The notes below the pieces were generated by a model. The model was not told the origin of the DNA. It saw only the letters and a list, made by a program, of their open reading frames with translations, and searched no databases. This document shows positions 9,629 to 15,292 of a stretch of 64,000 nt of DNA, one piece after another. The stretch is taken from contig JARGXX010000068.1 of NCBI GenBank assembly GCA_030374765.1, positions 1,922,001 to 1,986,000 on the forward strand, read 5' to 3'. Position numbers and translations under genes: made by a program. Position 1 is the stretch's first letter; every line of letters begins with the position of its first letter. The DNA is from Agarophyton chilense. Lineage: Eukaryota > Rhodophyta > Florideophyceae > Gracilariales > Gracilariaceae.

Positions 9629-11245
9629 TTAGTTCAATGCCCTTGAGTTTAGCAACCAATTGAAATTCCTAAAACAGAATCTCAATGGAGTCAAGAGAGC
9701 ATGAGCTGTTTGTTTATCAATTGCTGTGGTATAGGTAGTCACCAAAATATCGTTCACAATGATTCTCCCGTCCATAGTCTGCGGGTTATAAAGGCCTTTT
9801 TCGCGCACATGTGAAACATGAGTTACTTCTGCGAGCTGCCGAGAAGCTTTGACAATTGAGTCACCAACCCGTACTTCATGAGCAGGTCTCAGCACCCCGT
9901 TAATTGACAGCACGTGATCTAGAGACAGTAGCAACGGCTTCTTACACATTCGACATTCGATTCGAACGAACTTGAAGACCCCAGTGCGGCGTTTGTGTGT
10001 AAACATGAAGACTTCAGAGAACTCTTGAGGACCGACTCTTACTCGGTCTCCAACTTGCAAATCCATCATTAACCTGTCCCCGCCATTTTCAAGCGCAACG
10101 ACGGCGTTTGCAGGGAAACAAGCCGACCTTGGTTCTATAGTTAGATTGCTATCTACAACTCCGAACGCAGAGTTTATCTCCGCGCTTGGTGGTATGAAGT
10201 CCGATTCATGTTCAACTTCGTTCTCAGCGTTTGACTCAGGTTCTTCATGGTAACTCTTTTCAGGCTCATCAGCGGGGGTTTTAGTGGGGGGCTCGTTATG
10301 TCCGAATATGTTAATACCATCGGATGTGGTCTCAAAAACAGCCCCAGATTCGGACATCCACGATATATAGGAGGATATTCTTGTATATACGCCTGGTCTG
10401 AGAGGAGCAGCACATTCGTACCCAAACGATACAATGCCCACTTGAACCAAAACCAAATTTTTTCCTACTGTGAACAATGGGCCCCCGCTATCACCATAAC
10501 ATGAGTCACATCCACCCCTTTCGTAGCCAGCGCATATATGTGCCGTATCCTCGATGTTGACGTTAAGGTCTTCATACTGATCCTGACACAGTGAAGCAAC
10601 CTGAATCGGTACATCAACTTCACGTAGCACCCCACTGTTGGGAGTGGAAGTTCCATAGGTGTCTCCGTATCCACAGGTTCGAGCGAAGGAAGAAGTTGCG
10701 GGATAAGAAGGGTCTCGATTGATGTAAAAGAACTTCAAGTGCCTCGGGACAGGTTTCTTTAACTTGATCAGCTGCACGTCGTTTTCCTCTGTACCTCGGT
10801 CATTACGTAAGTACCTGGGGTGCGGAATAGCTTTTTCGATTTCGAAGTCAATTCCGTCTAGAATGGACGAGCCGCCAACTCTTAGAAAGACTCGTCGGGG
10901 GTCAATTTCGCAATGCGCAGCCGTTACAGCCCAGTATTTCGAGAGCAAGGAAGCTGAACAGAAAAATCCGAACCCTTCTGACACCAGAGCTGCCATGTAT
11001 AGCTTCATGTGCGGAGCACGATCACCGTTAACGATTCTATCAGGACCTCTTCTTGATTTTGACTGCAATTCTCCGGAGAAAATTGGAAGCACCTTCGGGC
11101 ACATCTCAACACCAGTCTTCGAAGGAGGTCCTGCTTGTGTGGTCTTTTCAGCATCCGAACCGTTGGCATTCAAAATTAGAAGCAGAATGACGATATGAAA
11201 GCCGTACCATTTACAGGACTGGGATTGTTTGGTCGAAAAGGGCAT
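9629..11245 (-). CDS. Secreted trypsin-like serine protease fused to a Hedgehog/intein (Hint) domain
   Basis: 538 residues. An N-terminal signal sequence (core FHIVILLLILNA, about 17-27) is followed by a short pro-region and a trypsin domain starting at R70-IVNG. The catalytic triad is visible: His111 in TAAHC, Asp156 in ENDVQLIKL and Ser253 in GDSGGP. Asp247, six residues before the serine, marks trypsin-like Arg/Lys specificity. An acidic Pro/Glu-rich linker (about 305-365) leads to a Hint domain from Cys376 (SACFPANAVVALENG). It holds a block resembling the Hedgehog TxxH motif (SLDHVLSI, Ser441 and His444) and a final IIVNDILVTTYT strand. In Hedgehog proteins this domain cleaves the chain just before its Cys and attaches a sterol to the released N-terminal part. 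By inference the protease could free or modify itself at Ala375/Cys376. The gene lies 232 bases upstream of the SAL1-like gene on the same strand. Confidence 0.9.
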   Translation of the reverse strand: MPFSTKQSQSCKWYGFHIVILLLILNANGSDAEKTTQAGPPSKTGVEMCPKVLPIFSGELQSKSRRGPDRIVNGDRAPHMKLYMAALVSEGFGFFCSASLLSKYWAVTAAHCEIDPRRVFLRVGGSSILDGIDFEIEKAIPHPRYLRNDRGTEENDVQLIKLKKPVPRHLKFFYINRDPSYPATSSFARTCGYGDTYGTSTPNSGVLREVDVPIQVASLCQDQYEDLNVNIEDTAHICAGYERGGCDSCYGDSGGPLFTVGKNLVLVQVGIVSFGYECAAPLRPGVYTRISSYISWMSESGAVFETTSDGINIFGHNEPPTKTPADEPEKSYHEEPESNAENEVEHESDFIPPSAEINSAFGVVDSNLTIEPRSACFPANAVVALENGGDRLMMDLQVGDRVRVGPQEFSEVFMFTHKRRTGVFKFVRIECRMCKKPLLLSLDHVLSINGVLRPAHEVRVGDSIVKASRQLAEVTHVSHVREKGLYNPQTMDGRIIVNDILVTTYTTAIDKQTAHALLTPLRFCFRNFNWLLNSRALN

Positions 11246-13588
11246 GTTTCTGAACAGTGATTGTGAGCGAGACTGATGAAGTCGTTATCGAGAACAGGTG
11301 TTACCCCACAGTTGTCAGAACGGGAATCTGGATTAGAATAAGCGGTGCTGACCTTGGGATACAATTAACATCCGAAAGATAATATCAACGATGGTATCAT
11401 TGCGCCATTACAAGAATCTCCCACTAACTCCGAACGTTACAACAGAATCACTAGACGTGCTCGTAGGGCATGTCTTGTGATGCTGTTGAAATTGCCGCCA
11501 TTCCACACGCAGAGTAAGGTGCAAGGCATAAGTGGTATTATTCGGTTTTCGTGCGGGCCAGTTATTCGTTGTGTTGTAGGGACCGAAGCAAAGACAGATG
11601 AGGTGTGTGCTAGAGGGGGGAAAGGCATGAGACCATGTTGCAATGAGCCGGGCATATTATGAGTGTAATCCTTATTCCGAGCCTGCAAGAATGTACAGTC
11701 TGTACAATGAAATGGCACTACACTTCAAGAAATGAATCGCTTGAAGGCCCGATAAAAATATTGCTAGTTCAATTCGTTTCATACAAGGATGTCTGACATG
11801 TGAACACCAGTATCCAGGTGAAATATATCATTACGGTTCGCAGAGACGTTTCTGAAGGAGCTCAACTTTTTGCGATTGTGTCAAACCTTGACCTCGACTT
11901 GCGTTGCCTCATTCTATGAATCGAAATACGAGTGAGATTTCTTCTGCAATAACAAACCGCACACCGCAAGGCTTTCCTGATGGCTCGATAACAATATCGT
12001 TATCGTTTGTGATTTCATCTGAAGGTTTCCACTTCATAATTACCTTTTTCTCGTGACTTGTGCCCACGATGAGATAACTCTGAGCTTTCTGACGAAGAAG
12101 CAAAGTCTCATTGGGAGTAGCAAATGAAGGACCACGGCTTCATCATGATAGACAGAGTCTGGTATTCCGTTTTTGCTTGGGACTATTCGAGTTTGAAAGG
12201 TCTTCGAACTTGTGGTCCGAGCAGTGCAATCAGTTCTTGCTTGATACAAAGTAACGACAGAGACGTGAGCTTTCTTTTCGTAGTAAAACGCTGTGGCTGT
12301 CGATGTTGCTTCACAACAAGAAGCTGGACACTTGGCGATCGAAAGCCGACTGCACAGCGCCACCAAAGAGGGCACGTTGAACAAAGTGCACAAGAATGTA
12401 TGTGAAGATGCTGCACGAGCACGTGTGTCATAAATAGAGTGGTCTAATTTCGCCAACGTCTTGCAACAGCTCACGAGCGCGGCCTGGACAAGCGCAAGCA
12501 TGGGAATCATCGACTGATACTGAATGGCGAGGGTGGATGATTTGCACGAAACACTGAGTGGGATTCAAAGCCTCATTGGGCCATTGGGATGTTGGAGCGA
12601 GGCGGTGATTGCTGCAATTCAGAGACTAGTAGGATTTGACACCAAACTGTTTTGCAATCAGACAACAAAAACACTTGCTGGTCAAATTCAGCGTTCTGTA
12701 GTAGAACATTACGTTGGGGGTGCTACGAAGGGGAAATTAAACAAATTCATGAATGGACAATGGCATCGACACAGCACTCAAAAAAGCTGTACACCGTGGA
12801 GTGAAAAAGGGGGGATTATTTTGCCTCACAACGAAAGCAAAGCCCAGAAGAAAAGACAGAGCACAAGAGCGTAGGCACCTGTCTCTGATGACCTGTCATA
12901 TTCTAAACTCTTATGCTGCCACACAAGAAGAGATGGACTTCTCTTCCGGTATGACAGATGAGCAATTGTCGAGTGCTCTCCAGTGTTTCTGTGAGCTTAT
13001 CGAAACCCAAACCCATTTGCGGCTTGCGCGGCTCACGTTCAGTGCAACAGAGCCAAGATGTCTTGGGTCAAACTTGAGCATCAATGGAACGCCGAAGGAC
13101 GTGTGATTTGATATCATCATGTGCACAACAGGACGACGATTGTATGACGGCTTCACATGGCTGTGTCAACGTTTAAAAACGTTGCCCCCACTTCGAAGAA
13201 ACGCGCTGTCGCACGATTTTCGTCAATGACGCAAAAAGTACTCCACAAGGCGTGCCTTTTACCAGCGAGTTGGACAATTCAATTTCATACGCGCTGGCTT
13301 GCCGTGGGGCTTTAACAAACGTATCAGCTCTGCTTGGGCCCGGTCCATGGTGACCCACAGGGTACAAGACGATGGCAACGTCGACAGCGCCCAACCGCAA
13401 CAATTACATGTCGCCCTTCTTAATTCACCGTGAATCGCTTCACATTCCCAAGCGTCAAACGCGTCTTGGGCCCGCTCGTGAATCTTCCGCCAGGAAGTCG
13501 GCAACTCCATCTGCAGGTGAAAGGTTTGCTCACCGGCGTCGCTCTTGAGTTGCGTGAAACAACACCGTATGCGTCATGGACACGCCTC
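11246..13588. other. Spacer with no confident gene
   Basis: About 2.3 kb between divergent genes. Several open frames (for example minus-strand 12040-12510 and 11909-12103, and plus-strand 12524-12874 and 12753-13106) overlap in different frames and none carries a motif I know. A short inverted repeat with 8-base arms (caacgttt/aaacgttg) sits at 13167-13184. The region may hold a spliced or decayed gene; I cannot resolve it. Confidence 0.4.
12524..12874 (+). CDS. Hypothetical ORF, unknown
   Basis: A 116-codon ATG frame. The first 90 residues have a normal protein-like make-up (for example GPLGCWSEAVIAAIQRLVGF), then it turns basic. No family is recognised. A second plus-strand frame (12753-13106, 117 codons) overlaps its end in another register, so one of them could be a chance frame or the two could be parts of a frameshifted or spliced gene. 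Confidence 0.2.
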   Translation: MARVDDLHETLSGIQSLIGPLGCWSEAVIAAIQRLVGFDTKLFCNQTTKTLAGQIQRSVVEHYVGGATKGKLNKFMNGQWHRHSTQKSCTPWSEKGGIILPHNESKAQKKRQSTRA

Positions 13589-15292
13589 ATGTCGCCCATG
13601 TTCATGGCTCCAAGCTCCTCCCTGCTACGCTTCCAGACTGACACCCCCATTGAAATGGCATCACTTGTTGCCAGCCTTGTCCTTGTAAATCTCCTGCTCA
13701 TAGTCCAACGCGCCACATGCAGCACCGTCGACAACACACAGCCCGAATCTATCGCTCATCCCGATCCAAACGCATTCGCAACTTTATTATGCGACCCTGA
13801 GACGCTTCCAGCCGTCGAGGCGCTCGCACACTCGATTCGACTCGCCAATCACGAAGAGCCGTTTCTCATCATTGTGCCGTCTTCTGTGCCGGACTTTGTC
13901 ATCGGTCGCATCAATGACTTGCCGAATACCCATGCGTTTGAGGCAGATTCTTTGCCGTACCCATTCAATTCTACCGCTGATCGAATGAACATACACAAAC
14001 CATGCCGCTTTCTCAAACTGCAACTGTGGGGACTCACCAGATGGACAAAGATTCTGTTCTTGGACGCCGATACAATTGTGCGCCAAAACGTTGCGGAACT
14101 GTTTGATGCGCCAGGGTTCAGTGCCGTCAAGGACCCTGTCGGCATGAACTACAACACCGGCGTCATCGTAATTGAACCATCGTCTTATGTGTACTCGCTA
14201 ATCATCAACAACTACGTACACGCAGGGAGCTACAACGTTGGCGATCAAGGTGCACTGAACGCTCTCATCGATTTTGACGCTTGGAATGCACTGCCAATGA
14301 GATACAACACGTTCCACACAGCGCCGAAGCAGTCGTTTGAGAAGGCAAAGATTGTGCATTACTCCGGAGACGCAAAACCATGGAACTTTTGGAAGGCAAG
14401 AGGACATGGCAGAATTCCAGTTCGTGCGTTTGTGGAATGGTGTAACATGGCAGAAAACACACCCACTGCAGCGTGCCACATGCGCGGTAAGATCGACCAT
14501 CGAGAGAAAGACTCTGCTCTGATGAAACGCTACAGGGATTCTGTGGAGGACAAGTACATGAGCGTGCTTCTTTCCACGTTCAATCGCGATTCGTGGAGAG
14601 ATTTGGCTGTGTTCTACGGGGAGCTGGACTTTGTGAAGGAAGTGTGGGTGGTTTGGCAGAACATGAACAAGACGAGAGAGGCTGCCCCTCACGACAAGGT
14701 AAAGTTTGTGTACCCGGACTCTGACTCGCTCAATAACCGGTATCTTGCGGCGGATGTATCGGAAGACTGCGTGTACATATGTGACGATGACATCTTTGTG
14801 CCGGCACACAGCCTGCGGTCCGGGTTTGAGGTGTGGAAGCAGAATGCGGCGCGACTGGTGGGGTTTTATCCGCGCATGTGGTACCCAGTACCCGGATCTT
14901 ACACGGTGAACATTGCCTCTGGGTATAACATCGTGCTGACAAAGGGCATGTTTGCTCATCGGTCGTTCTTGACGGCGTATTCGTTGTTCTTGCCGAAACG
15001 TCTGACGCGAGTGGTTGACGAGGTGATGAATTGTGAAGATATTCTGCTGAATATGTTGGCGGTGGGCATGACTGGGTTGCCTCCATTGGCTGTGATGTCG
15101 AACGAAACAATTCGTGATATCGGTAAAGATAAAGGCATTTCGGGGCCGAAGGGCTCTGGTCATCTGCACACTCGAGACCATTGTGTGCAGAGATTTATGC
15201 GACTCGGGATGGACCAAACGACACTTGCCAGTCGTGGAAGCATTCTACCGCTGGCGAGAAGGAATCATGTGATTGGGGCGGGTGACGATTAA
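13589..15292 (+). CDS. Two-domain glycosyltransferase: GT8 (glycogenin-like) plus GT64 (exostosin-like)
   Basis: 567 residues from the ATG at 13589; an alternative ATG at 13655 gives 545. A hydrophobic stretch (MASLVASLVLVNLLLIVQ, residues 23-40) fits a signal anchor or signal peptide. Residues about 60-290 form a GT8 domain with the DxD metal motif in KILFLDAD (159-161), NTGVIVIEPS and HYSGDAKPW. Residues about 322-545 form a GT64 domain: STFNRDS, the VWVVWQNMN strand, SLNNRY (380-385), ICDDDIFVP with DDD at 399-401, VGFYPRMW and the NCEDILLNML block. GT64 enzymes add GlcNAc or related sugars in glycan or glycolipid synthesis, and GT8 members transfer Glc, Gal, Xyl or GlcA. Both active-site motifs look intact, so it may be bifunctional and act in the Golgi lumen (inference). 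Confidence 0.9.
   Translation: MSPMFMAPSSSLLRFQTDTPIEMASLVASLVLVNLLLIVQRATCSTVDNTQPESIAHPDPNAFATLLCDPETLPAVEALAHSIRLANHEEPFLIIVPSSVPDFVIGRINDLPNTHAFEADSLPYPFNSTADRMNIHKPCRFLKLQLWGLTRWTKILFLDADTIVRQNVAELFDAPGFSAVKDPVGMNYNTGVIVIEPSSYVYSLIINNYVHAGSYNVGDQGALNALIDFDAWNALPMRYNTFHTAPKQSFEKAKIVHYSGDAKPWNFWKARGHGRIPVRAFVEWCNMAENTPTAACHMRGKIDHREKDSALMKRYRDSVEDKYMSVLLSTFNRDSWRDLAVFYGELDFVKEVWVVWQNMNKTREAAPHDKVKFVYPDSDSLNNRYLAADVSEDCVYICDDDIFVPAHSLRSGFEVWKQNAARLVGFYPRMWYPVPGSYTVNIASGYNIVLTKGMFAHRSFLTAYSLFLPKRLTRVVDEVMNCEDILLNMLAVGMTGLPPLAVMSNETIRDIGKDKGISGPKGSGHLHTRDHCVQRFMRLGMDQTTLASRGSILPLARRNHVIGAGDD

Follow-up and report, generated by a model that had tools for sequence, protein, structure and literature searches.

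A predicted secreted trypsin joined to a Hedgehog-type Hint domain in Agarophyton chilense, one cargo among many of a genome-wide Hint family

The window analysed here is a 64,000-nucleotide stretch of the Agarophyton chilense assembly GCA_030374765.1 (contig JARGXX010000068.1, positions 1,922,001 to 1,986,000). An unbroken open reading frame of 538 codons was found on its minus strand between 9629 and 11245, exactly the interval given in the original prediction, with the ATG at 11245 and the TAA at 9631–9629; the displayed frame of the plus strand contained many stops. The frame encodes a putative trypsin-linker-Hint precursor of 538 amino acids, referred to below as P0001. A hydrophobic, signal-peptide-like leader, judged from hydropathy alone, occupies residues 1 to approximately 32 (11150–11245, end approximate) and corresponds to the N-terminal signal proposed earlier. 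It is followed by a propeptide of residues ~33–70 (11036–11149), which contains Cys49 and the activation site Arg70 (residues placed by script), and by the trypsin domain of residues 71–298 (10352–11035), delimited by Pfam and script. An acidic linker of residues 299–375 (10121–10351), recognised by composition, alignment and codon score, leads to the Hint fold of residues 376 to ~506 (9728–10120), delimited by Pfam and alignment. Cys376 (10118–10120) is the expected nucleophile by alignment and family conservation, with the predicted cut at Ala375/Cys376. A short sterol-region-like tail of residues ~507–538 (9632–9727), placed by alignment, contains the motif AHALLTPLR.

The Pfam search suggested with the original prediction returned Trypsin at residues 71–297 (2e-38) and Hint, PF01079, at residues 374–531 (1.1e-22; 81.1 bits against a cut-off of 29.7), both above their cut-offs. 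Down to an E-value of 1, Pfam matched nothing in P0001 beyond Trypsin, Hint and a sub-threshold Hint_2, and no Hedge signalling domain was found. Hint_2, Vint, Hom_end_hint and PT-HINT fell under their Pfam cut-offs wherever they were seen in P0001 and its paralogues. The downstream neighbour of P0001 (8263–9396, minus strand) matched inositol monophosphatase. Elsewhere in the window, a single frame of 620 amino acids on the plus strand (13430–15292) contained a GT8 stretch (179–321) and a GT64 stretch (390–592), to our knowledge an unusual pairing.

The linker of P0001 comprises 77 residues, of which 18 are D/E and 3 are K/R, so the acidic linker noted earlier before the Hint domain was recovered as residues 299–375. 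GT and AG dinucleotides occur within it, and it resembles the acidic linkers of the remaining Hint family members. A codon score trained on the paralogue frames, with P0001 itself left out, was computed separately for the complete ORF, trypsin, linker and Hint domain; for each of these it was above 0 in the P0001 frame (+11.2 for the linker) and below 0 in the five other frames. The last 32 codons scored -7.4, yet this was the top score of the six frames. As the codon score favours its own frame in every part, P0001 is not a chance frame.

Script placement located a complete set of S1A features: the H111–D156–S253 triad, D247 in the S1 position and an R70/I71VNG start. The full triad and trypsin-type S1 Asp247 claimed in the original prediction were thereby recovered, and P0001 is, by its triad, its IVNG start after Arg and its S1 Asp, a predicted S1A trypsin. 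Two further cysteines were observed, Cys49 (11099–11101) in the propeptide and an extra Cys246 (10508–10510) beside the S1 loop. In an alignment read by eye this pair co-occurred in several sister trypsins, and L021 had the second cysteine alone. Since the two occur together in these sisters, the propeptide of P0001-like trypsins may remain disulphide-linked after activation.

The searched assembly (79.8 Mb, 135 contigs) contained at least 40 places matching PF01079 and at least 20 matching PF00089, both lower bounds given that the profile searches ignore introns. The P0001 locus was the sole overlap of the two lists. Thirty-six of the 40 Hint places were retained for alignment; those left out were L048, a fragment of 105 residues, and three copies broken by internal stops at C29:2818–3132, C103:456070–456384 and C105:14880–15251. 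The first two of these broken copies score identically and may be one duplicated stretch. Phycobilisome-linker profiles matched the assembly 13 times, six times on six separate large contigs and seven times on C39, where an 892-aa frame with three matches occurred twice (C39:39186–226579), 185,684 bases apart; the two occurrences score the same, which looks like a double placement of the plastid genome within one contig. The phycobilisome genes, like the Hog family, are consistent with a red alga. A signal-like leader was present in 32 of the 36 Hint proteins under a crude hydropathy rule that accepted any Met.

The Hint alignment and profile were built from the 36 unbroken copies of this one genome, P0001 included, and had a mean column identity of 33%. 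Against known structures the profile matched Drosophila Hh best (6td6, 3.5e-25; 6tyy, 2.4e-23; 1at0, 3.4e-21) and then Sonic hedgehog (7e2i, 2.1e-20), whereas inteins were weaker (best 2.3e-5). On this comparison the Hint domain of P0001 is classed as Hedgehog/Hog type and not as an intein; together with the PF01079 match, this upheld the earlier call of a Hedgehog-type Hint domain from Cys376. Alignment of P0001 with Drosophila Hh paired Cys376 with Cys258, His417 with Asp303 (D46), Ser441-x-x-His444 with T326-x-x-H329 and Thr504 with C400 (C143). Five columns were invariant across the 36 Hint domains: Cys1, the His at the D46 position, the TxxH His and two Gly. The original prediction had counted loss of the Cys and His in orthologues against a Hint domain; among the paralogues in this genome, the Cys1 nucleophile, the TxxH His and the D46-position His were kept in 36 of 36. 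The first TxxH residue was Thr in 19 and Ser in 17. The C143 position held Thr in 23, Ser in 5, Ala in 4 and Cys in 4, and the residue at -1, Ala375 in P0001, was Ala in 10, Val in 10, Ser in 6 and another residue in the other 10.

The SLDH block in place of the Hedgehog T-x-x-H motif (residues 441–444) and the TTYT aligned to Hedgehog SCYA in the final strand were therefore both present as described, but neither is special to P0001: with Ser in 17 of 36 and the Cys replaced in 32 of 36, they are ordinary for the family. Since 17 of the 36 Hint domains carry it, Ser in the TxxH position was treated as probably tolerated and not as excluding P0001 from the Hog-type Hint domains. The earlier view that splicing is unlikely also held, because the frame stops approximately 32 residues past the Hint fold and provides no C-terminal extein with a +1 nucleophile.

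In Drosophila Hh, the D303A mutant is reported to retain DTT cleavage without completing cholesterol transfer, and according to the same review D303H retains structure and activity, with a >200-fold gain on coprostanol and a wider choice of sterols; its crystal structure is 6TYY (PMC9163320). A preprint describes the D46 residue as thought to restrain wasteful hydrolysis (PMC13060885). Because the position matters mainly for transfer and its base is strictly conserved as His in these 36 Hint domains, the alignment suggests that they still keep a transfer step of some kind.

The sterol region of P0001 was more equivocal. In SHH, helix 1 of this region bears a His-Pro-Arg motif (H374, P379, R381) on which cholesterol transfer in cells is reported to depend critically and which simulations place at the membrane (PMC7906309). 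The AHALLTPLR segment of P0001, aligned with Drosophila Hh, provides His515, Pro520 and Arg522, so that the helix 1 motif is complete; across the 36 Hint domains the His was present in 25, the Pro in 33 and the Arg in 34. SHH constructs without helix 1 or without helix 2 are reported to give zero cell-associated product, a 32-residue stretch of the SHH loop to be dispensable, and Hh mutants without the sterol region to cleave while attaching no cholesterol (PMC7242414). SHH helix 1 ends nine residues past the motif Arg and helix 2 has 16 residues (PMC7242414, PMC7906309). P0001 has 16 residues past this Arg, the third shortest tail of the 36, among which seven had <25, 13 had 25–32 and 16 had at least 33. 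With 16 residues left where SHH needs nine plus 16, the predicted P0001 tail has no room for helix 2, although many paralogues do. No helix 2 hidden 3′ of the stop was recognised by eye in the three downstream frames. By comparison with SHH, it is above all this short tail that speaks against P0001 in particular transferring a sterol.

An N-terminal Pfam domain scored above its cut-off in six of the 35 P0001 paralogues, and in none of the other 29. These domains were Temptin_C (L016), Cu2_monoox_C (L017), Pentapeptide_3 (L034) and Fasciclin, the last in two genes of L032 and in L038, where it lay just 0.4 bits above the cut-off. Since paralogues carry these other domains, the trypsin is one predicted cargo among many of the genome's Hint family. 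The temptin gene (L016:938–2356, minus strand; Temptin_C 1.6e-30, Hint 9.4e-22) was the single temptin place found in the genome; temptin is a mollusc pheromone protein. Two pairs of Hint genes lay close together on one strand, L005 and L006 in L012 (C95:1164769–1168681) and the two fasciclin-Hint genes in L032 (C123:67583–71028).

In the Hint tree P0001 clustered with L006, L018 and L027 (96/95). The N-terminus of L006 is like those of L005 and L035 and is not a trypsin, so the nearest relatives of the P0001 trypsin and those of its Hint domain appear to be separate. L018 (926–1558, minus strand) and L027 (917–1696, minus strand) were short open frames in which the leader was not found, and for this reason they perhaps have upstream exons. 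Module swapping at the level of the Hint domain was considered because some paralogues sharing N-termini lie apart in the Hint tree, yet AU tests of five shared-N-terminus pairs as clades rejected none (p 0.35–0.65) and three pairs were even better together; no swapping is therefore claimed. Pattern searches for Hog relatives in viral contigs and prokaryote genomes gave 1, 30 and 44 matches, none of which was confirmed by tblastn.

The best trypsin matches to P0001 were L002, L003, L004 and L008. Of the 19 other trypsin places, 14 were scanned for a hydrophobic 19-residue stretch with a mean hydropathy of at least 1.9 after the trypsin domain, the profile having missed L062, L063, L065, L066 and L068. 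A predicted transmembrane segment was found 19–194 residues past the domain in eight of the 14 (L002, L003, L004, L008, L014, L021, L030 and L067). At least two Lys/Arg followed within 15 residues of the segment in seven of these eight; L030 had one, in a 4-residue tail. L056 showed no hydrophobic 19-residue segment after its trypsin domain, and fewer than 19 residues remained in L057, L059, L060, L061 and L064, of which L061 and L064 look split over two frames. P0001 had no such segment after the trypsin (maximum 0.93). Its matches to L002, L003 and L004 extended to residues 330, 317 and 329, approximately 20–30 residues beyond the domain end at 297; past this shared stretch the sequences diverge into a predicted transmembrane segment in the three sisters and into linker and Hint in P0001.

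The Hint domain may thus replace the anchor in P0001, as a device for anchoring or for releasing the enzyme. Against this replacement stands the poorly resolved placement of P0001: a trypsin tree of 13 rows (L061 and L064 omitted as too short) had few supported branches and placed P0001 in a fork with the eight segment-bearing trypsins and two without a segment, the branching order lacking support. Naming one trypsin as the sister of P0001 was rejected, as this tree gave no resolution around it. A general exchange of anchor for Hint was likewise rejected, as two of the three Hint-free fasciclin places were read and neither showed a transmembrane segment (maximum hydropathy 1.52 and 1.39), the third scoring the same as one of them. 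The genome held no Hint-free temptin place for such an anchor comparison.

Self-cleavage at Ala375–Cys376 probably yields a lipid-anchored or a free protease. The reading we favour, tentatively and at a little under even likelihood, is that a secreted trypsin zymogen is made as a Hog-type precursor and becomes lipid-anchored by sterol transfer. In the secretory pathway, the Hint domain would turn the Ala375–Cys376 peptide bond into a thioester, with Cys376 assisted by His444 and Ser441. With His417 activating it, an alcohol would then attack the thioester and receive the trypsin; the likeliest candidate is a membrane sterol reached via the short sterol-region helix. The trypsin would end up esterified through Ala375 to a lipid that keeps it at the membrane and stands in for its sisters' predicted transmembrane anchor, and zymogen activation would be a separate cut at Arg70–Ile71. 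The cleavage itself, the sterol as acceptor and the membrane location of the product are the parts of this route that we infer. As weak context, two Patched-family places were found in the genome; the Patched family includes general sterol transporters.

Sterol transfer is favoured by the invariance of Cys1, the D46-position His and the TxxH His at 33% identity, by the need for D46/D303 in the sterol step and not in DTT cleavage together with the activity of D303H (PMC9163320), and by the retained helix 1 motif. The predicted segments of L002, L003, L004 and L008, which P0001 lacks, favour membrane anchoring, and a preprint account of the SHH cargo as a replaceable bystander (PMC13060885) is consistent with a trypsin as Hint cargo. 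Sterol transfer is opposed by the 16 residues past the Arg, given that SHH without helix 2 is reported to yield no cell-associated product (PMC7242414), and by Ala in place of the Hedgehog Gly at -1, Ser for the TxxH Thr and Thr for Cys143.

The lack of room for helix 2 makes hydrolytic release a serious rival, possible though distinctly less than evenly likely: the thioester would be hydrolysed by water, a soluble trypsin would be freed, and the Hint domain would replace the anchor with a timer or release switch. The helix reported as needed by SHH for cholesterol transfer in cells does not fit, mutants without the sterol region reportedly cleave without attaching cholesterol (PMC7242414), and the Cys143 residue is lost. 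However, P0001 retains His417 and the His-Pro-Arg motif, both tied to the sterol step, and if D46 limits wasteful hydrolysis, as is thought (PMC13060885), a base at this position would be needless for plain release. Improbable by comparison is a Hint domain that does not cleave and stays bound, for example as an inhibitor or fold support of the trypsin. The Ser for the TxxH Thr, the Thr for Cys143 and the short tail would suit it, but Ser is about as frequent as Thr in the family and Cys1, His417 and His444 are kept. Self-cleavage onto another acceptor, such as a cell-wall glycan or protein, which would fix the trypsin to the extracellular matrix, has a low probability; the family includes matrix-type cargoes (Fasciclin, pentapeptide) and variable tails, and the term 'adduct recognition region' was coined for unsettled acceptors (PMC2362128), but no acceptor-binding feature was found in P0001 and its His-Pro-Arg motif is common to the sterol-binding helix. 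An artefact, with trypsin and Hint on separate transcripts or joined by assembly error, is extremely improbable given a single open frame, a linker that scores as coding in this frame alone and resembles those of other family members, and a contig of 5.0 Mb.

A wider reading of the preferred sterol transfer would take Hog as a general, self-executing sterol-anchoring cassette with a native His for Asp, present in at least 36 genes and replacing the transmembrane anchor of the trypsin. Taken whole we consider this unlikely, though not negligibly so. If it is true, the attachment of sterol to proteins is old in eukaryotes and extends beyond the animal Hedgehogs. P0001 makes Hog function testable, having an enzyme as cargo, sisters with ordinary predicted anchors and a native His swap.

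Hog proteins whose N-termini differ have already been published from red algae. Those of Chondrus, Gracilaria, Porphyra and Griffithsia (Burglin 2008, PMC2362128) resemble P0001 in that the motif J Cys is replaced and motif K is kept; in contrast to P0001, no protease was noted among their cargoes in that account, and its main text does not use the word 'histidine'. The same paper put forward the attachment of a sterol, or of a comparable group, as the activity of an ancestral Hog protein. The Kelch-Hint (K+H) proteins of Cyanidiales are, like P0001, red algal domain-Hint fusions in a multigene family, but they have a Kelch cargo instead of a protease and are largely subtelomeric (PMC9812998, PMC13353863); in 2026 Kelch-Hint and non-Hedgehog Hog proteins were still termed 'of unknown function' (PMC13353863). 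The diatom Pleurosigma pacificum is reported to have over 290 Hint-domain genes (PMC12803021). Animal Hedgehog shares with P0001 the Hint fold, Cys1, the TxxH His and sterol-region helix 1, whereas P0001 carries a trypsin where Hedgehog has the Hedge domain, lacks helix 2 and has D46 replaced by His, C143 by Thr and the Gly at -1 by Ala. The choanoflagellate Hoglet is reportedly released by autoprocessing. In it, Hog is joined to a domain that is not Hedge and resembles cellulose-binding domains, a cargo other than that of P0001 (PMC2362128). No trypsin-Hint fusion was found in the titles and abstract starts of the open-licence PubMed Central papers retrieved, in line with the original statement that no characterised protein of this form was known. 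Drosophila Hh D303H (D46H; 6TYY) has His at the sterol-activating position as P0001 does, engineered there and native here, and the sister trypsins belong to one trypsin family with P0001 but carry a predicted transmembrane segment instead of the Hint domain. Set against these published accounts, two features are apparently new: a whole family, as seen in this genome, in which position 46 is natively His, and a Hint domain standing where sister proteins have a predicted transmembrane segment.
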